DNA of 64,000 bases from NCBI GenBank assembly GCA_947493165.1, contig CANLPY010000001.1, forward strand, positions 1,588,501 to 1,652,500, written 5' to 3'. A program made the translations under genes and the position numbers. The stretch is from an uncultured Erythrobacter sp. Lineage in GTDB: Bacteria; Pseudomonadota; Alphaproteobacteria; Sphingomonadales; Sphingomonadaceae. The notes under the pieces were generated by a model. That model made no database searches. It had not been told where the DNA came from and saw nothing but the letters and a program-made list of their open reading frames with translations. How positions within the stretch are numbered: the first letter of the stretch is position 1; every line of letters starts with the position of its first letter. Shown here piece after piece: positions 5,193 to 40,700 of the stretch.

Positions 5193-5867
5193 ATGACGAC
5201 ACGCACAGTTGCCATCTGGGATTGGCCTGTCAGGCTAACCCATTGGGGCTTTGCGCTGCTCATCCCAGCAATGTGGTGGACGGCTGAGAACGGAGAGATG
5301 GGCTGGCACATGCGGCTTGGCCTTGTTTTGCTTGCGTTCGTGCTATTCCGGATTTTCTGGGGTTTTTTCGGCAGTCAAACGGCGCGATTTGCGAGTTTTG
5401 TGGGGTCGCCATTAACCGGGATCGCGCACCTCTTTGGCCGTCATAAACACCCAGAACACGCCATCGGCCACAACCCGTCGGGCGCTTGGAGCGTTATCGC
5501 TTTGCTTGCAGCCATCCTAGCACAGGCGAGCATGGGATTGTTCGCAGGAGACCCGTATGATGGAGCGACCGGCCCGCTAAATGCCGCCGTTGGTGTTCTT
5601 ACAGCTGACACACTGACAGAATGGCATGAAACGTTTTTCTGGGTGCTGGTCAGCTTAGTTGCACTACACCTAGTTGCAGTGCTTCTCTATCAAACGTTTG
5701 GGCGCAAAAATATCATCGGGCCAATGGTGACAGGAGCCCGAAAAAGCGACGCCCTTACGGACGGCAACACATCTGGCAGTATTACAGCCCTGTTGGCATG
5801 TGCAATCGCTGCGGGCGCAATTTCCGGTCTGATTGGGACGGGCATGGTCGAGCAATGGTTTACATAA
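5193..5867 (+). CDS. Cytochrome b561 family protein
   Basis: 'VAIWDWPVRLTHWGFALLIPAMWWTAENGEMGWHMRLGL', multiple TM segments and His residues; directly downstream of cytochrome c'. Confidence 0.85.
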   Translation: MTTRTVAIWDWPVRLTHWGFALLIPAMWWTAENGEMGWHMRLGLVLLAFVLFRIFWGFFGSQTARFASFVGSPLTGIAHLFGRHKHPEHAIGHNPSGAWSVIALLAAILAQASMGLFAGDPYDGATGPLNAAVGVLTADTLTEWHETFFWVLVSLVALHLVAVLLYQTFGRKNIIGPMVTGARKSDALTDGNTSGSITALLACAIAAGAISGLIGTGMVEQWFT

Positions 5868-5989
5868 AAGCCTAGTGCATCATAGACTTATGAAAATACG
5901 ACCCATTTAGTCCGATTTTCGGGAAACAGCAGCGCGTTTGATCGTTAAGATTGAAACCATTTTTCTAGAATTCCCGAGGGGGTAAAGCA

Positions 5990-7198
5990 GTGATCGACAA
6001 AGTAGGCCTCGCGCTAAAGGATTTTCTTAAACAGGAGAGCGCGGGCGGTATTGTTCTGATTGTCGCTGCGGCACTCGCCTTGGTGGTTGCCAACAGCCCG
6101 CTTGCAAGCGGATATTTCGGCACATTGGGGACCTATCTCAATCTGTCTTTTGGCGACTTTTCGATCAACAAACCACTGCTGCTTTGGATCAACGATGGTT
6201 TGATGGCGGTGTTCTTCTTCCTCATTGGCCTCGAAGTGAAGCGCGAAGTTATTGAAGGCCAGCTTTCCAGCTGGGACAAAGCCTCGCTTCCGCTGGTCGC
6301 GGCCATCGGCGGCATGGCCATACCAGCGCTCGTATTTCTTGGCATCAACTCTGGCGAGCCAGCCAACCAAGCCGGTTGGGCGATCCCAGCGGCGACTGAT
6401 ATCGCGTTTGCGCTTGGTATCCTGTCCCTTCTCGGCCCGCGCGTGCCAGTGGCGCTCAAAGCGTTGTTGCTGGCCATCGCCGTGATCGACGATATCGGCG
6501 CCATCACGATTATCGCGCTGTTTTATTCAGGCACGCTAGACACCGATATGTTGATCGGTGGAGCTATCGCGTTCGCTGCGCTGATTGCCGTAAATCGTAT
6601 GCGGATCGGATCGAGCATCCCCTATGTATTGCTCACAATCATCATGTGGGTTTTCATCTTGAAATCAGGTGTCCACGCGACGCTTGCAGGCGTTGCCGCG
6701 GCGATGACTGTGCCTATGGTGGCGCGGGGCGAAGTACGTTTGCTGGAGCACATGGAGCATGGCTTGCACAAGTGGGTCGCGTTCCTGATCATCCCGATCT
6801 TTGGCTTTGCCAATGCGGGCGTCAGCCTAACCGGAATTTCCCCAGCTGACCTTGCGGCGCCGCTACCACTCGGCATCGCGCTGGGCCTGCTGATCGGCAA
6901 GCAGATCGGTATCTTTGGGTTCGCTTTTGCCGCGGTAAAGTTGGGCTTTGCCAAGCTGCCGGAACACGTCAATTGGCGCCAGATCCACGGGCTTTCGCTG
7001 CTCGCAGCTATCGGCTTCACCATGAGCTTGTTCATCGGCAACCTCGCCTTCCCAGACAGCGCAGAGCAGGTTGATGCGGTGAAGCTAGGTGTGCTGTCCG
7101 GTTCGCTCGTTTCGGCCCTGGCTGGTTTCTTCCTTCTTAAAGGCGCTTTGCCGAAAGAGGGCGTACAGCCAAATGGCGGAACCACAAAAGTTGCGTAA
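5990..7198 (+). CDS. nhaA: Na+/H+ antiporter NhaA
   Basis: 'LLLWINDGLMAVFFFLIGLEVKREVIEGQLSS', 'GWAIPAATDIAFALGILSLLG', 'AIVDDIGAI'-type motif 'IAVIDDIGAITIIALFYS'; GTG start. Confidence 0.97.
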   Translation: MIDKVGLALKDFLKQESAGGIVLIVAAALALVVANSPLASGYFGTLGTYLNLSFGDFSINKPLLLWINDGLMAVFFFLIGLEVKREVIEGQLSSWDKASLPLVAAIGGMAIPALVFLGINSGEPANQAGWAIPAATDIAFALGILSLLGPRVPVALKALLLAIAVIDDIGAITIIALFYSGTLDTDMLIGGAIAFAALIAVNRMRIGSSIPYVLLTIIMWVFILKSGVHATLAGVAAAMTVPMVARGEVRLLEHMEHGLHKWVAFLIIPIFGFANAGVSLTGISPADLAAPLPLGIALGLLIGKQIGIFGFAFAAVKLGFAKLPEHVNWRQIHGLSLLAAIGFTMSLFIGNLAFPDSAEQVDAVKLGVLSGSLVSALAGFFLLKGALPKEGVQPNGGTTKVA

Positions 7199-13661: not shown

Positions 13662-14575
13662 GGTTTAAACCCCTCATTGGAAAAGCGGGTCAATCGCACC
13701 GCCATATGATCATCAACCGCGCCCAAGGCACCGCGCGCAAAGTCACGCGTATCAATGCGCAGGGGGATCTCACGCGGGGCGAGCAGCGGGATCTCATCGC
13801 CCACAGACAAAGTTTCCAACCTTTCCAATGACAGGTCGAATTCCGCCAAAATCGCATCAATGGGCATGGGAATATTGGCAAAAGGCGCCGAGCGCGGATC
13901 AGCTGGACCTTCAGGCTGGCTGCGCTTTTGTGCTGCTGCGCTAAGACCGGGCAGCATTCCGTCCAATTGATCGGCGCGCATAGCGATCAACATTGACCAG
14001 CTATCGCCGCCCTTGGCGCCAATGCTGAGCGGAAGAATGGTGCAATCGCTCACCGTCTCGAAAGGTTTAAGACGCACCGCGCTTTCGCTGCGTACGATTA
14101 CGTCGCCGACTATGCCGTCGCCGCCACCGCTCGCCCGCGCCAGAGACTGCGCAATCACCTGCGCTACCCGGTCTATCAAAATAGCGGCAGAGCTCGGCAA
14201 GGGCGGCTCGGCGCTCTCTGGCGGCTTGCCATCACCGCCGAAAGATCGATCCGTCAGCGCCAAAGCGTTGGCCAAATTTAGAGAAAGCAGCAATGTCTGA
14301 TCGTCCCGCCCGCAGCGCAAAAGGCAATTGACCGCGATCGGGCCAATCTTTGCGAACACTTCACTGCCCTGCATTGGCTCGGGCTCACCCAGCGTGGCTT
14401 GCAGTTTTTCGCCCATGAACAGCGGAGCCAGATCGTTTGCGATGTGACTGGAACCATCGCGCAGCCACATCGACAGAAACTCGGCCCGGTCCTCTGGTCG
14501 GGGCCCGCGCTCGGTTAGCTCTGGGCAATGCTGCGCAATCGCCCGCGCGCCCGCAAAGGATTGTTGCATGTTCAT
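13658..14575 (-). CDS. fliM: Flagellar motor switch protein FliM (divergent)
   Basis: Position between fliL and fliN; 'ALTDRSFGGDGKP' (FGGDG motif); C-terminal SpoA-like region 'LSLERLETLSVGDEIPLLAPREIPLRID'. Confidence 0.85.
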   Translation of the reverse strand: MNMQQSFAGARAIAQHCPELTERGPRPEDRAEFLSMWLRDGSSHIANDLAPLFMGEKLQATLGEPEPMQGSEVFAKIGPIAVNCLLRCGRDDQTLLLSLNLANALALTDRSFGGDGKPPESAEPPLPSSAAILIDRVAQVIAQSLARASGGGDGIVGDVIVRSESAVRLKPFETVSDCTILPLSIGAKGGDSWSMLIAMRADQLDGMLPGLSAAAQKRSQPEGPADPRSAPFANIPMPIDAILAEFDLSLERLETLSVGDEIPLLAPREIPLRIDTRDFARGALGAVDDHMAVRLTRFSNEGFKP

Positions 14576-15156
14576 TGGACCAACAGCCCTCTGAAATGGA
14601 CCGCCTCAACACCGCCAAAACCCTCTTGTTCTTCCAGAACAGTGTTGACCGCTCGCGCCAGACGTTCGGCAAGCGCCTGCTTACCTTGGGCAGAGAAGAT
14701 GTCGTCTTCAGGCGTCGCAGCAAGCTCTGTCAGCAAGGCAGAACGGATCGCCAACTCATGCTGATTCACCCATTGCAAGACCCGCCCGTCATATTGGGTC
14801 GAAACAGCAATATCAGTCTGAATCAGAGCGGGCGAATTAAACAGATTGGACGTGAACGTATCTTCAAATGCGTAATAGGCTGTGCGGTGCTCGCTACCGC
14901 CCTCGCCATGAACAACGCTAACTTGGTCCTTCTCATCTCCGGTTGAGAAAGCGTAAGGGTCTTCTGCCCCTTTTCGAACCAATTTTGGCATATCGGGTTC
15001 GTTGGCGCTGGCTTCATTGCCGAATAGACCGGCAGCGAACGCACCATAAGCACCGCCCGCACCAGCGGCGAGCAACAGGACCGCGCCTAAGATGATTTTC
15101 AAGAGCCCGCCTTTGGGCTTCTCATCGCTATCATCGTCTTTCTTCTTCTTGGCCAT
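14572..15156 (-). CDS. fliL: Flagellar basal body-associated protein FliL
   Basis: Lysine-rich N-terminus, single TM, 'YYAFEDTFTSNLFNSPALIQTDIAVSTQYDGRVLQWVNQHELAIRSALL'. Confidence 0.92.
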   Translation of the reverse strand: MAKKKKDDDSDEKPKGGLLKIILGAVLLLAAGAGGAYGAFAAGLFGNEASANEPDMPKLVRKGAEDPYAFSTGDEKDQVSVVHGEGGSEHRTAYYAFEDTFTSNLFNSPALIQTDIAVSTQYDGRVLQWVNQHELAIRSALLTELAATPEDDIFSAQGKQALAERLARAVNTVLEEQEGFGGVEAVHFRGLLVQ

Positions 15157-27714: not shown

Positions 27715-28659
27715 CTATGGCGCTTCAACCTCTGCCTCAGAGCTCGACACTTGCGGTGCACTCGCAATCCTCTGTGGCATTGCAGGCGTGGCTCTGTCAT
27801 CCAGCAGCAGCACCGAAATCCGGCGGTTGCGGGGGTCAGCCGGATTGTCTGCGATCAAAGGTTCCCGGTCAGCCACACCTTCGATGCGCGCAAAGCTATC
27901 TTCGGCCAAACCTTTTTGCATCAGCGCCTGACGGGTGGCCTCTGCACGTCCAGTGGAAAGCGACCAATTGTTCGCCTGTATGCCAGAGCGCCACGGCAGC
28001 GCATCGGTGTGGCCGCGCACGATCAATGGCGCGTCGTTCTCTGCCAGCGCGCCAGAGATAATCTCCAGCAGCTCGCGCGCCTCTCCGGTCAGCACGGTTG
28101 TGCCCAATGCGAACATGGAAAACTCTGCATCATCCACCAGATCAATGCGGATGCCCTCTGGCGAACGCAGCACGCGCACTTGCTTGGCCAGATGGCGGAT
28201 CTTGCGCTTGGCCTCCAGCCGCCGCTCAATCTCCTCGCGCAATTTGCGCATCTTGTCTTGGCCAGGATTGTCCCGCCCAGACGCCTCTAACGGGCCGCCT
28301 ACGGTGTCTTTGGGGATGGAAATGGCCTGTGTGCCGGTCTGCCCCATGGCGTGTGGGTAATTGTCGACATCGGTCAGCGAGCTGCCGCCCAGCAGCCCAT
28401 CAGACCCGGCGCTTTGCTCTTTCAATTTGACCAAAGTGGGCGTGAAGTAATCCGCCAGCCCTTTGCGCTGGTCCTCCGTGGTCGCGCCAAGCAGCCACAA
28501 CAGCAGGAAAAACGCCATCATCGCGGTCACGAAATCGGCATAGGCCACTTTCCAAGCGCCGCCATGATGGCCGCCCGCCTCAATCGTTACCTTTTTCACG
28601 ATTATGGGCGCGGGCATTGCCGCCGCGCCGCCGGTAGCCTCAGCTTCAGCCTCAGCCAT
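27715..28659 (-). CDS. motB: Flagellar stator protein MotB
   Basis: 'HHGGAWKVAYADFVTAMMAFFLLLWLLGAT' and OmpA-like 'IRGHTDALPW...STGRAEATRQALMQKGL...ADREPLIADNPADPRNRRISVLL'. Confidence 0.96.
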   Translation of the reverse strand: MAEAEAEATGGAAAMPAPIIVKKVTIEAGGHHGGAWKVAYADFVTAMMAFFLLLWLLGATTEDQRKGLADYFTPTLVKLKEQSAGSDGLLGGSSLTDVDNYPHAMGQTGTQAISIPKDTVGGPLEASGRDNPGQDKMRKLREEIERRLEAKRKIRHLAKQVRVLRSPEGIRIDLVDDAEFSMFALGTTVLTGEARELLEIISGALAENDAPLIVRGHTDALPWRSGIQANNWSLSTGRAEATRQALMQKGLAEDSFARIEGVADREPLIADNPADPRNRRISVLLLDDRATPAMPQRIASAPQVSSSEAEVEAP

Positions 28660-28660
28660 C

Positions 28661-29524
28661 TCAGCTGCCCCGCATCATATCGAGCAATTCGGTAAGCTTA
28701 GGGCGGTGCGCAGGCGGCAGGGCTGAACGCGCCGCCTCCAGCACCATTGGTTGCGGATAGCCGTGGAGCGAGGCGATGATGACCTGCTTGATTGAATGGA
28801 AAATGACCTGATCATGCGTGTTCACTTGCTTCAGGCGGTTCGCCATCGGACCGGCAAAGCCATAAGCCAGCAGCACGCCCAGAAACGTGCCGACCAGCGC
28901 GCCGCCGATCATTTTACCCAGCACTGCAGGCGGTTGATCGATGGACCCCATTGTCTTGATAATACCCAACACCGCCGCAACGATACCCAGAGCTGGGAAG
29001 GCATCGGCCAGCGATTGCACCGCATGTTGAGGCTCTTCCAATTCGTGCAGCTGGGTCTTGATGGCGCTGTCGATCACGTCTTCGACCGCGTGCGTGTCCA
29101 GCGTTCCGCTAGACACCACCATCAGCGTTAGCGGGTCGCAGATCAGATTGCGCACCGCATCATCTTTGAGCAGGCGCGGATATTCGGCAAAAATGGCTGA
29201 GTTTTCCGGCTCGGTGACATGGCTTTCGAGCGCAACAGCCCCTTCGGCGCGCAGTAATTTCATCAGCTTGCTGCACAGCGCGATCGCATCAATGTGATCC
29301 TGATCGGTGTATTTTGGCCCTTTGAACACTTTGCCAAGGCCGCCGCCCAGCAGCTTAATCTCATGCATAGTGTTGCCGATCAGAACCGCGCCAATCGCCG
29401 CCCCACCGATCATCATCATTTCCAGCGGCAAGGCGGCCAGGATCGGGCCCATAGAGCCGCCCGCCAGCGTATATCCGCCAAACACCATGACGATGAGCAC
29501 GACTATTCCGATACCGGCGAACAT
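28661..29524 (-). CDS. motA: Flagellar stator protein MotA
   Basis: 'LADAFPALGIVAAVLGIIKTMGSIDQPPAVLGKMIGGALVGTFLGVLLAYGFAGPMANRLK'. Confidence 0.97.
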   Translation of the reverse strand: MFAGIGIVVLIVMVFGGYTLAGGSMGPILAALPLEMMMIGGAAIGAVLIGNTMHEIKLLGGGLGKVFKGPKYTDQDHIDAIALCSKLMKLLRAEGAVALESHVTEPENSAIFAEYPRLLKDDAVRNLICDPLTLMVVSSGTLDTHAVEDVIDSAIKTQLHELEEPQHAVQSLADAFPALGIVAAVLGIIKTMGSIDQPPAVLGKMIGGALVGTFLGVLLAYGFAGPMANRLKQVNTHDQVIFHSIKQVIIASLHGYPQPMVLEAARSALPPAHRPKLTELLDMMRGS

Positions 29525-36746: not shown

Positions 36747-37159
36747 TTGCTCCTTAGTGTTTCGAGCATCAGTTGCTTGGCGGTTTGCAGCGCCTGAACC
36801 ATGTTTTGGTACTGGCGGGCGCTTTCCATGATCTCGACCATTTCGGCGGTCTCATCGACTGGGCTTTCCCAGACATTGCCTTCCTCATCGGCGAGTGGAT
36901 GGTTGGGGTCATAGCGTTTGGCGGGCGCGCTATCAGAGCGCATCAGCCCTTCGTTGCGAACGGTGGCAAGGCCGGATGCGCGGTCTAGTTCGGTTTGAAA
37001 AACAGGCCGCACCGGGCGATAGGCTTCCTCTGCGCTGCCAGCGACGGACCCCGCATTGGCAAGGTTTGATGTGGCGGCATTCATCCGCACCAACTGGGCG
37101 GACATTGCCTTTTGCGTCATGGAGAAAAGGGTGAGGCGGTTGTTATCAGCCATGCTCAT
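36743..37159 (-). CDS. flgC: Flagellar rod protein FlgC
   Basis: 'KAMSAQLVRMNAATSNLANAGSVAGSAEEAYRPVRPVFQ', 'VDETAEMVEIMESARQYQNMVQALQTAKQLMLETLR'. Confidence 0.96.
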   Translation of the reverse strand: MSMADNNRLTLFSMTQKAMSAQLVRMNAATSNLANAGSVAGSAEEAYRPVRPVFQTELDRASGLATVRNEGLMRSDSAPAKRYDPNHPLADEEGNVWESPVDETAEMVEIMESARQYQNMVQALQTAKQLMLETLRSN

Positions 37160-37503
37160 TCACCCTTCAGCGCGCGGGTGATGGTGTTGACCTTGCCTTG
37201 CACGAAAGACAGCGTCGCGCTGTATGCGACCGCATTTTCGGTGAAGGCGACCTGTTCATTGCCCAGCTCAACCGTGTTGCCATCCAAAGCGGGCATCACC
37301 GATTGGCGGTAAAGCGTATTGGCAGCGGCGCTGGCATCTGCGCCCATCCCGCCCAACCGATCATTAAGCGCCGCTGCAAAGTCGATATCGCGCGCTTTGT
37401 AACCCGGCGTTGCGGCATTGGCGATGTTAGAGGCGAGCAGCCCCATGCGCTGCGAACGCAATTCGAGCGCAGCTGCGTGGATGCCAAAAATCTGCTCATT
37501 CAT
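37156..37503 (-). CDS. flgB: Flagellar rod protein FlgB
   Basis: 'MNEQIFGIHAAALELRSQRMGLLASNIANAATPGYKARDIDF'; track start at 37746 is too far upstream. Confidence 0.95.
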   Translation of the reverse strand: MNEQIFGIHAAALELRSQRMGLLASNIANAATPGYKARDIDFAAALNDRLGGMGADASAAANTLYRQSVMPALDGNTVELGNEQVAFTENAVAYSATLSFVQGKVNTITRALKGE

Positions 37504-37655: not shown

Positions 37656-37671
37656 TGGGCACGGCCTTGCA
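37656..37671 (+). promoter_or_regulatory. Possible sigma-54 promoter of the MotA/ExbB-like pair
   Basis: TGGGCACGGCCTTGCA; GG-N10-GC spacing correct, -24 element imperfect. Confidence 0.4.
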
Positions 37672-37803
37672 GGGTCTATGGTTTCCAAGGGCTTGCACCA
37701 GATCCACGCATTTCGCGCGGGGAACAGCGGCCGCACATGGACGCACGCGAGCTGCGGCTTCAACACGGCTTAATCTGACCCGCTGGGACCCGTTCTAACT
37801 TCC

Positions 37804-38481
37804 ATGCCCAGCGACCTTTCCATCCTGTTCGATCCAACCGCCTTAGCGGTAGTGATTGCTGGAACACTGATCGCGACGTTCGCGCGTAGCGGGTGGAATG
37901 ATGTGAAAGAGGCTTTGCGGGCGATTGTCCGCCTCCACCACCACAGCTTTGATGCAGACGCCAATCGCGCCGCGCTCGCCCAAACGGTCAGTGCGATTGC
38001 CCGCGATGGGCCTTTGCGCGCCGAAGTGCCACAAGCGCCCGATCCGCTGATCGCCAAACTGGTAGACATTTATCTGCGCCAGCGCTCCCCCGCAGCCATG
38101 CACTCTGCCCACCGCGCCGCGCGCGCCAAACGCGACATTGCCCGGATGCAAGCCGTGCGGACGATGGAACATGCCGGTGAGCTTGGCCCGGTGTTCGGCT
38201 TGGTGGGAACATTGTTTGCAATCACGCAGCTATCGCCCGGTGATGCAGGGGCGCTGGGCAATACAATGGGCGCTGTGGCAGGCGCGGCTGTCTCAACCCT
38301 TTATGGCGTGCTGACGGCGCATATGCTGTGGATTCCACTGGCGCGCGCGATTGAGCGTGAAGGCGAGTATGAAGAAACCCAGCGCGAACGCTTGATCGAG
38401 TGGCTCGACATTCAATTCGAAGAGATTGACCTGCCAAGTACCGTGTCCGCCAAATCCCCACCTTTAAGAGATATCGCATGA
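37804..38481 (+). CDS. MotA/TolQ/ExbB-family proton channel protein
   Basis: TM helices and 'MEHAGELGPVFGLVGTLFAITQLSPGDAGALGNTMGAVAGAAVSTLYGVLTAHMLWIPLARAIE'. Confidence 0.85.
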   Translation: MPSDLSILFDPTALAVVIAGTLIATFARSGWNDVKEALRAIVRLHHHSFDADANRAALAQTVSAIARDGPLRAEVPQAPDPLIAKLVDIYLRQRSPAAMHSAHRAARAKRDIARMQAVRTMEHAGELGPVFGLVGTLFAITQLSPGDAGALGNTMGAVAGAAVSTLYGVLTAHMLWIPLARAIEREGEYEETQRERLIEWLDIQFEEIDLPSTVSAKSPPLRDIA

Positions 38482-38876
38482 CTATTCGCCATGCGTTGCC
38501 TTGGCAGCTAATCCTAGCCGACCTGGCGCTGATCTTGTTTCTGGTGTCGCTTGCGGCACTTGCGGGCATGGGCACTATCCAAGCTGGAACGCCAAGGGAC
38601 GGCGAGACCATTGCGGTGGCACCGGCGCAGGCGCTCTATCGCCCCGCCGCCAATGTACCGGAAATCGGCGAATGGCTCGACGATCAAGCGATTGACCCGC
38701 GCGCCACTTTGAGCGTGTTCGCGCGTTACCGCACAGAAGATAAAGAGGCGAGCTGGGCCGAAGCGCGGCGGCTTGCTGAAACAGCGCAGATGCGCGGCGT
38801 GTCAGTGCGCGTGGTGCTTACCCCCGCTGAACAGACCGATGTTTACGCCAGCCTAGCCTTCGATGCCCATAAATGA
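38478..38876 (+). CDS. Small MotB/ExbD-like single-TM protein without an OmpA domain
   Basis: 132 aa; N-terminal TM 'LADLALILFLVSLAAL' with an Asp at the position of the MotB/ExbD channel Asp; 4-bp overlap with the MotA/ExbB-like gene. Confidence 0.6.
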   Translation: MTIRHALPWQLILADLALILFLVSLAALAGMGTIQAGTPRDGETIAVAPAQALYRPAANVPEIGEWLDDQAIDPRATLSVFARYRTEDKEASWAEARRLAETAQMRGVSVRVVLTPAEQTDVYASLAFDAHK

Positions 38877-38927: not shown

Positions 38928-39986
38928 TCAATGCGCAACAATCGTATTGCGGCCGGCCTTCTTCGCTTCATAAAGCGCTGCGTCTGCCCGCGCGAGAGCG
39001 CTACGCGGATCGCTGTCTTCGGTCACTTCGGCCACACCACCTGAAAAAGTGATCTTGCCAAACGGTTTGCCGGTTTCGCGGTTGAGCAATTGCTTGCTGG
39101 CCATCATGCCCCGCACCTTATCCAGCTTGTGCCATGCCTCTTGCTTGGTCAGGCCATAAAAAAGCAGCACAAATTCTTCGCCGCCATGTCGCGCGATAAA
39201 GCATTCATCATTGGCGATTGCATTCAACGTGTTGGCAATCGCGCACAGGATCCGGTCGCCCGCATCGTGACCATGGCGATCGTTGACCTGTTTGAAATTA
39301 TCGACGTCGCAAAAGGCAATGCAGAGCGGAACATCATTGGCGCGCGCTTCATCGCTGGCTGATTTGAGACGCCGTTCAAACGCGCGGCGATTGGGTAAAC
39401 GGGTCAGATGGTCGACATCCGCCTCATGCCGGGCCTGCGCCAAGGAACTGCGCAATTGCTGAGTTTCGCTTTCGCTGCGATCCATCGCCTTTTCAACCTG
39501 CTCAAGCCGTTCCAACATGGATGCAGACAATTCAATCACCCGTTCGACCCGCATTCCCTCGCTATGCGCCACCGAACCACTTTGAATTTCTTTTATCTGC
39601 CGGCCAATGGCCCCGCGATGTTGGCTGCTTTCATCTTGCGCTGATTTCGCCGTTTGGGCGAACCGCAACAGCGAATATTCAAGCTTGTCCATCAGCTTTT
39701 CCAGCTCAGCGATCCGGTCATGCGTGCCAGGGTCCAGCCGCGTCATCGTATTGATCCAGCGTTGATCAATTGGCTCACGACTGGTTTCGCGCGCGGCAAA
39801 TTCTTGGGCCAATTGCCGGTTTGATCCAGAAAGGGCTGCGCAAACCAGACTGAGGTTCGTGCCAGTGATATCCAGATCATGGCGGATCAGAAAATCGCTA
39901 ATGTGAGTCAGCAAATCGTGCCGCGCGGCTCTAACAGATGACTGCGGTGGAATGTCGTGAGCGTCAAATGGCATCGGGTGCGTCAT
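38928..39986 (-). CDS. GGDEF-domain diguanylate cyclase
   Basis: 'DHLTRLPNRRAFERRL', 'FCDVDNFKQVNDRHGHDAGDRILCAIANTL', 'ARHGGEEFVLLF'; start probably 39986 (MTHPMPFD). Confidence 0.95.
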   Translation of the reverse strand: MTHPMPFDAHDIPPQSSVRAARHDLLTHISDFLIRHDLDITGTNLSLVCAALSGSNRQLAQEFAARETSREPIDQRWINTMTRLDPGTHDRIAELEKLMDKLEYSLLRFAQTAKSAQDESSQHRGAIGRQIKEIQSGSVAHSEGMRVERVIELSASMLERLEQVEKAMDRSESETQQLRSSLAQARHEADVDHLTRLPNRRAFERRLKSASDEARANDVPLCIAFCDVDNFKQVNDRHGHDAGDRILCAIANTLNAIANDECFIARHGGEEFVLLFYGLTKQEAWHKLDKVRGMMASKQLLNRETGKPFGKITFSGGVAEVTEDSDPRSALARADAALYEAKKAGRNTIVAH

Positions 39987-40098
39987 AGGAGACCTTATTT
40001 CTATGCGCGTCTTAGGACGGGCGGGCATCGTCCCGCTCGACTAAGCCGGTTTAATTGACGCAGCCCCCGAAGCTCCCCTGCGGTAAATACTTAGGCGT

Positions 40099-40115: not shown

Positions 40116-40160
40116 GCAACCACTGCAGGGATAACTTTGCTTAAAAGGGAGCGTGACGCC

Positions 40161-40700
40161 ATGCGATCACTATTCAACTGTCTATACTTCGCGCCAGCAG
40201 GATTGCTGATGATGATCCCATTGCTGTCGCCAGCATTCGGGCAACAAAGCGCCGCAGCATCATTCACTGATCCGGCCCAGATTGACCACGCGGTGATGCG
40301 TTTTACCGGAGCCAATATTGGCGATATCGGAGGCGCGCGGCTGCCCGCTGATCGCCGCTTGCGCCTTGCCCGCTGTGCCAGTCCGCTGGTCACATCTTGG
40401 CATGGCCGTGTGGGCCAAACCGTTCGCGTCGAATGCCCGGATGCGGGGGGTTGGCGCATCTTTGTCGCCACCCGTTCCGCTCCGTCCCCGGCGCAAGAGG
40501 CCAAACCCGTCAAAGTGATCAAGCGCGGAGACCCCGTTACCGTTGCAGTGCGCGGACGCGGGTTCTCGGTGCAGCAATCAGGCGAGGCAATGGGCAACGG
40601 CGCGGTGGGCGATTGGATCGCCGTACGCACAGCGCGCAAGCAGGAGCCCGTGCGCGCCCGAATTGTGCGCCCCGGCTATGCCGTGATCCCGGTTCAATAA
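40161..40700 (+). CDS. flgA: Flagellar P-ring assembly chaperone FlgA
   Basis: Signal peptide; SAF-type C-terminus 'VIKRGDPVTVAVRGRGFSVQQSGEAMGNGAVGDWIAVRTARKQEPVRARIVRPGYAVI'. Confidence 0.9.
   Translation: MRSLFNCLYFAPAGLLMMIPLLSPAFGQQSAAASFTDPAQIDHAVMRFTGANIGDIGGARLPADRRLRLARCASPLVTSWHGRVGQTVRVECPDAGGWRIFVATRSAPSPAQEAKPVKVIKRGDPVTVAVRGRGFSVQQSGEAMGNGAVGDWIAVRTARKQEPVRARIVRPGYAVIPVQ

Follow-up and report, generated by a model that had tools for sequence, protein, structure and literature searches.

The window, a 64,000-nucleotide stretch of an uncultured Erythrobacter genome, carries a flagellar cluster in which two small adjacent plus-strand genes, here called A2 (225 aa) and B2 (132 aa), lie next to flgB (Table 1). 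The minus-strand flagellar genes run in the order flgB-flgC-flgD-flgE-flgF-flgG-flgH-flgI-flgJ-flgK-flgL-motA-motB, and past a GGDEF gene the plus-strand run reads flgA-flgM-flgN-transglycosylase-flhA-fliA. A preliminary description of this DNA had reported two genes overlapping by 4 bp between the divergent flgB operon and flgA, with a canonical MotA and MotB encoded separately. Both open reading frames are present and share an ATGA, and profile matches locate the canonical pair at the far end of the minus-strand run. The placement beside flgB also holds; on the other side, in contrast, the diguanylate-cyclase gene separates B2 from flgA in this window. A GGDEF gene occupies the same slot in 39 of 80 loci (the best 80 of 204 relatives), these being the window's closer relatives, and is missing there in the others.

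Table 1. Positions of the gene pair, its sequence features and related flagellar genes in the window.
Feature	Position	Strand	Basis
FliL	14575..14877	-	
Canonical MotB with MotB_plug and OmpA domain	27715..28659	-	Profile search
Canonical MotA, ordinary stator	28661..29524	-	Above TIGR03818 cut-off
flgB, first gene of the divergent flgBCDEFGHIJKL-motAB run	37156..37503	-	
In-frame TAA, ten codons 5' of the A2 start	37771..37773	+	Sequence
A2, MotA/PomA-type channel subunit; predicted with three TM helices, without the canonical TM1	37804..38481	+	
A2 residues 66-74, counterpart of the MotA R90..E98 rotor-contact motif; the window's clade does not conserve the charges	37999..38025	+	Group alignment
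A2 Pro129, equivalent of MotA Pro173, TM3; invariant	38188..38190	+	Alignment
A2 Thr165, equivalent of MotA Thr209, TM4	38296..38298	+	Alignment
A2 Pro178, equivalent of MotA Pro222, TM4; invariant, not present in TolQ/ExbB	38335..38337	+	Alignment
ATGA stop/start overlap of A2 and B2, 4 bp	38478..38481	+	Sequence
B2, putative MotB/PomB-derived partner; mini OmpA-like domain joined by a short linker to TM helix 8-30	38478..38876	+	AlphaFold, Foldseek, HHalign
B2 Asp15 codon, equivalent of the ion-binding Asp	38520..38522	+	Conserved in 80/80 (best 80 of 204 relatives)
B2 residues 52-128, predicted degenerate OmpA/MotB_C-like beta-alpha-beta-alpha-beta-beta domain	38631..38861	+	AlphaFold, Foldseek
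GGDEF diguanylate-cyclase gene between B2 and flgA	38928..40028	-	Pfam GGDEF, E 2e-38
flgA, P-ring chaperone; next plus-strand gene after the pair	40137..40700	+	Synteny; same order in an annotated syntenic copy

The open frame of A2 could encode at most 235 aa. A longer A2 that includes the first transmembrane helix (TM1) of canonical MotA is ruled out by the in-frame TAA upstream of its start and by a group alignment in which TM1 is missing from 20 of 20 A2 proteins. Genes around the pair are flagellar: no tonB, tolA or pal lies beside it in the window, in the syntenic loci or in an annotated syntenic copy, and no type I secretion genes were found around it in the window or in that copy. The window encodes FliL elsewhere, which excludes the pair as a FliL replacement.

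Inspection of the flgB-A2 intergenic region reveals sigma-54-type motifs (TGGCACG-N4-TTGC) directed towards flgB in most relatives, one of which (L108) has three copies, and no conserved equivalent directed towards A2. The sole plus-strand match of this type in the window's own gap is imperfect and lies at 37658. A conserved sigma-54 promoter for A2 was rejected, given that the -24/-12 motif faces flgB in most relatives.

Conservation of the pair with the flagellar cluster

With B2 as query, about 30 of the 151 family genomes yielded relatives. The order flgB (minus), A2, B2, flgA (plus) recurs in all 29 family loci fetched, as does the 4-bp overlap. Flagellated relatives lacking a recognisable B2 often hold a diverged pair in the same flgB-flgA slot; we refer to these provisionally as Sphingomonas-type (S-type) pairs and to the window's kind as E-type. 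The overlap is kept in 8 of 9 S-type loci. Among the best 80 of 204 B2 relatives in public genomes, A2 adjoins B2 in 79, the 80th locus beginning at a contig edge; flgB-A2-B2-flgA synteny extends across all 80 save at contig ends, and the source is a sphingomonad or erythrobacter wherever a genus is named. The expected conservation of the pair next to flagellar genes is thus borne out by the 29 syntenic family loci, and its absence is excluded.

A joint A profile covering both types detects the A subunit at high score in 65 of the 151 family genomes, comprising 64 of 103 with FlhA and 1 of 48 without it (Fisher p 6e-14, an indicative value since related genomes are not independent). The lone FlhA-negative genome is a fragmented metagenome-assembled genome in which flg genes still surround A2. 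Where the pair occurs, A2 lies within 15 kb of flhA in 60 of 65 genomes, and a canonical TIGR03818 MotA accompanies it in 63. The latter count eliminates the pair as a stand-in for missing MotAB, the two exceptions being a genome with broken flagellar genes and a fragmented one. Synteny, the association with FlhA and co-occurrence with MotA together uphold the preliminary claim of a second A/B pair of the 5:2 type that is tied to the flagellar cluster and additional to canonical MotAB. In the genome with broken flagellar genes, the flgB and flgF matches are split and canonical MotA was not found, with the A2 and B2 frames still open.

The pair is missing from 39 FlhA-positive genomes, among them clades in which flgB and flgA directly adjoin, and it is therefore dispensable for having a flagellum. 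Beyond the family, among the other families within the order and class, only full-length PomA-type proteins score against the profile, reaching at most 154 bits versus at least 174 bits for intact A2; a frameshift-split copy and a degenerate copy fall below this floor. Some pair-less FlhA-positive genomes, represented by three loci, have a flagellar cluster of a different type, in which full-length PomA stands beside a sigma-54-type regulator and FlhA.

Median dN/dS among close pairs is 0.21 for A2 and 0.18 for B2, such that both genes are under purifying selection. Together with an overlap kept in 29 of 29 loci, this shows that A2 and B2 are not a chance pair of open reading frames. Sequence identity of the pair among relatives is 27-51%, compared with roughly 60-80% for flgB, flgC and flgG. 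If the pair were the decaying, pseudogene-like leftover of an earlier PomAB stator, this would account for a stepwise reduction from PomAB through the S-type to the window's type, for the pair's absence from some clades and for a degenerate A2 lacking a B gene at one locus (L177). The selection estimate largely refutes this reading, and residues invariant across 80 genomes (the best 80 of 204) and the retained overlap also weigh against it, leaving it with hardly any credence. At L177 the A2-like gene (5842-6627, plus strand) stands alone between flgB and flgA with an altered TM4 Thr/Tyr-Gly motif, and the pair there is apparently decaying.

Ancestry and predicted structure of the two subunits

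The MotA/TolQ/ExbB channel signature noted earlier in A2 is confirmed by a Pfam MotA_ExbB match that clears the curated cut-off with E 4e-9. At the equivalog level A2 scores best with models of the MotC/PomA type, namely PRK09109, which is matched by every member of the A2 family; the match in A2 starts at profile position 26. Searched against solved structures, a profile of 76 A2 proteins retrieves PomA first (8brd, E 1e-25) and then MotA, with no match to ExbB/TolQ. In a maximum-likelihood tree, E- and S-type A2 group with PomA-type proteins against canonical MotA (100/100), and 73% of bootstraps contain a branch that sets the A2 group itself apart. This tree was built without TolQ and ExbB; a tree including them placed them beside some A2 proteins on very long branches.

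The AlphaFold model of A2 (pLDDT 92) is a helical bundle with TM3 embedded in one continuous helix, residues 96-141. The region between TM2 and TM3 is modeled as helices 31-45, 51-68 and 81-93 followed by the start of helix 96-141, and the cytoplasmic domain is PomA-sized. Foldseek ranks PomA and MotA chains at the top (best PomA TM 0.76) and TolQ/ExbB far lower. The group alignment indicates that the equivalents of E. coli Pro173 in TM3 and of Thr209 and Pro222 in TM4 are retained. The equivalent of E. coli MotA Arg90 is not conserved, and at the Glu98 equivalent S-type proteins have Asp and E-type proteins various residues. Judged from these profiles, the tree and the model, A2 is a member of the PomA-type flagellar stator lineage and not of ExbB/TolQ. 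Its alignment describes a PomA-type MotA minus TM1 and the conserved rotor-contact charges, with the channel prolines and threonine kept; the preliminary description had not noted these losses.

Identification of B2 is less direct. No credible Pfam or NCBIfam family match was obtained for B2, and MotB_plug finds no match within the B2 family. A hit to a pertussis toxin domain (Pfam E 0.03; 14.6 bits, with the cut-off at 27) was set aside as a chance match. The AlphaFold model, prepared from an 80-row alignment (pLDDT 87.5), predicts a TM helix at residues 8-30 and, past it, strand 52-54, helix 63-69, strand 76-84, helix 86-105 and strands 109-116 and 121-128. The size-matched Foldseek hits of this model include the SiiA peptidoglycan-binding domain 6qvp at the top, the OmpA-like domain of 3td3 and MotB_C from H. 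pylori (3s06); these OmpA-type matches have modest E values of 0.01-0.1 and probabilities of mostly 0.94-1.0. The statement in the preliminary description that B2 lacks an OmpA-like region therefore agrees with the profile search, which finds no match, and conflicts with the predicted fold, which resembles a short, degenerate OmpA/MotB_C-like domain.

The S-type pairs connect B2 to the stators. S-type A subunits have three TM helices and 218-239 aa, and S-type B subunits have 152-218 aa with a TM Asp. Most S-type B proteins match MotB_plug weakly and match OmpA (Pfam) with varying strength, and they retain the OmpA Arg. HHalign aligns the B2 family with S-type B over the whole length (probability 92, E 6e-7) and S-type B with MotB/PomB across the OmpA domain (probability 95, E 3e-8); direct profile comparison of B2 with MotB fails. 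Secondary structure had hinted at a relationship of B2 to ExbD/TolR. This candidate was rejected: the HHalign probability is 3.7, Pfam ExbD does not match, and Foldseek instead returns OmpA, MotB_C and SiiA. The comparison of S-type B with ExbD/TolR profiles likewise fails.

The residue proposed earlier as the ion-binding equivalent, Asp15, is correctly positioned and is invariant in 80 of 80 B2 proteins, as are Trp9, Trp66, Asp73 and Arg75, with Arg111 present in 79 (all among the best 80 of 204 relatives). In contrast, the HTD Asp and LSxxRA Arg of the peptidoglycan-binding motif are not conserved. The linker between TM helix and domain spans about 20 residues in B2 versus about 120-140 in the window's MotB, the latter estimated from a TM Asp at 41 and an OmpA region from 180. 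Given the chain of profile matches from B2 through S-type B to MotB/PomB, and the predicted fold, B2 is best read as a probable MotB/PomB descendant with a shrunken OmpA-like domain that has lost the plug, the long linker and the peptidoglycan-binding residues. With the intermediate forms alive in S-type genomes, the pair offers a natural deletion series for asking which stator parts anchoring, torque and ion flow require.

A unit without stator ancestry, brought into the flagellar cluster as an envelope energiser like ExbBD/TolQR and acting on an outer-membrane or periplasmic partner, would suit the layout of a three-TM A subunit and a short B subunit with a linker of about 20 residues, which is that of ExbB and ExbD. 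The sequence and structure searches that put A2 with PomA/MotA argue against it, and so do the TM4 proline, invariant in A2 and missing from TolQ/ExbB, the lack of ExbD/TolR similarity in B2 and the absence of adjoining tonB, tolA or pal. We regard this origin as very improbable. ExbBD/TolQR is disfavoured as ancestry and survives as an analogy of mechanism within the explanation preferred below.

Comparison with known units and candidate roles

Flagellar stators are set apart by a square-fold A subunit, a torque-generating interface, a plug and linker, and an expanded peptidoglycan-binding domain, with at least four cytoplasmic helices as the criterion for the torque-generating interface (PMC12505986). 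Stator traits present in the pair are a MotA_ExbB domain of the MotA/PomA branch, a TM3 predicted as continuous with the P173 proline, the P222 proline of TM4, the TM Asp of the B subunit and flagellar linkage. Those lacking are the four-TM square fold, the R90/E98 rotor charges, and the plug with its long linker. As for the peptidoglycan-binding domain, B2 offers an OmpA/MotB_C-like predicted fold alone, with no Pfam match and neither signature residue conserved. Since the square fold, plug and linker are lacking and the domain appears degenerate, we do not file the pair as a functional flagellar stator, though its ancestry lies in the stator lineage.

PomAB/MotCD-type stators (PRK09109, PRK08990; 8brd) share with the pair the A sequence family, the TM3/TM4 motifs, the TM Asp of the B subunit, the tandem A-B order and flagellar linkage. 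The pair differs from them in lacking TM1, the R90/E98 charges and the plug, and in having the short linker and the shrunken OmpA-like domain devoid of peptidoglycan-binding residues. Canonical MotAB (TIGR03818) shares the superfamily and, by homology, presumably the 5:2 architecture; it differs in having four TM helices, rotor charges, a plug and an OmpA domain, and A2 falls on the PomA side of the 100/100 branch. SiiAB, encoded by Salmonella SPI-4, is a MotAB-like unit with a task other than applying torque to FliG. Its SiiA domain (6qvp) is the top fold match of the B2 periplasmic domain; in contrast to SiiAB, the pair lacks type I secretion genes, and B2 is devoid of the residues for peptidoglycan binding, a property ascribed to the SiiA domain. 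ExbBD/TolQR resembles the pair in its three-TM A subunit, its short, unplugged B subunit and a possible periplasmic output, but shows no sequence affinity to A2 or B2, and no TonB, TolA or Pal partner gene lies nearby. At most, the pair works like ExbBD or SiiAB and is a member of neither.

The preliminary description had suggested that the pair might be a stator modulator, a brake or an export-energising unit. In terms of identity, A2 and B2 are very probably a reduced PomAB-type flagellar pair. For its role, we favor a flagellum-dedicated, reduced PomAB-derived 5:2 ion-driven unit, or 'pseudo-stator', acting as an accessory energiser or modulator (probability about 0.55), with a stoichiometry assumed by homology. 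Its output is somewhat more apt to be non-canonical than canonical, and is likely exerted in the periplasm or through regulation. The channel residues are intact, namely B2 Asp15 and A2 Pro129, Thr165 and Pro178, and the unit would still conduct ions and turn. It would transmit no torque to FliG through the usual contacts and would not be anchored to the wall in the manner of MotAB. Because B2 has no plug and little linker with which to reach the wall, the more likely working face is the small domain that B2 has in the periplasm, which bears invariant residues of its own and may act on a basal-body part located there, or on basal-body assembly, in the fashion of ExbBD or SiiAB.

An output that is periplasmic rather than purely regulatory is held only tentatively. 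More doubtful still is the full proposal that a stator-derived 5:2 rotary unit has been repurposed within the flagellar cluster from turning the rotor to periplasmic basal-body work, such as load sensing, passage through the envelope or assembly linked to the P-ring and FlgA; if true, it would constitute an energised flagellar part without a described counterpart. An assembly role was considered because flgA, the P-ring chaperone gene, is the next plus-strand gene after the pair. Several observations count against the preferred explanation: the Foldseek E values of B2 are modest and its direct comparison with MotB fails, a PomA-sized cytoplasmic domain in A2 would be odd if rotor contact were wholly gone, S-type A2 is still acidic where MotA has E98, S-type B keeps the OmpA Arg, and 39 FlhA-positive genomes do without the pair.

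The pair may instead be a genuine second stator, comparable to MotCD of Pseudomonas or MotPS of Bacillus, that is recruited to the same C-ring and supplies conditional torque, its rotor interface having been remodelled and its anchor being of short reach or provided by a partner. Such a stator would fit the PomA-type ancestry of A2, the cytoplasmic domain size and continuous TM3 of its model, the retained Pro173, Pro222 and Thr209 equivalents, the weak MotB_plug and OmpA matches of S-type members and the strict flagellar linkage. It must be reconciled with the loss of the square-fold TM1 in all members, the unconserved R90/E98 charges and, in the window's clade, the loss of the plug and peptidoglycan-binding residues and a linker of about 20 residues, compared with about 120-140 in the window's MotB. 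Stator torque interfaces are, moreover, normally not dispensable, as partial deletions of the E. coli torque-generating interface abolish motility (PMC12505986). On balance a second stator is rather unlikely.

Unlikely, too, and less readily entertained, is a regulatory decoy, brake or stator-exchange factor, in which weak or inactive units fill or vacate stator positions, perhaps in connection with c-di-GMP. The loss of torque and anchor features around a preserved A-B core would be expected of such a factor, as would evolution faster than that of neighboring genes and the GGDEF gene adjoining in 39 of 80 loci (the best 80 of 204 relatives). The invariant Asp15 and channel prolines argue in contrast that ion conduction is used, and the GGDEF gene lies on the opposite strand and is missing from the slot in many other loci.

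A2 and B2 are a stator-lineage pair inside a flagellar cluster that has kept its channel and shed or shrunk several stator-defining traits, which lets one ask whether flagella may house ion-driven units other than the rotor-driving stator. Searches of open-access literature turned up no paper on the pair, which is apparently undescribed there. In the syntenic copy in Qipengyuania citrea, public annotation names the two products 'MotA/TolQ/ExbB proton channel family protein' and 'hypothetical protein'. This copy lies together with a large run of flagellar genes and canonical motAB on a 270-kb plasmid (NZ_CP098495.1, 64161-96751), so the pair can travel with a flagellar cassette.
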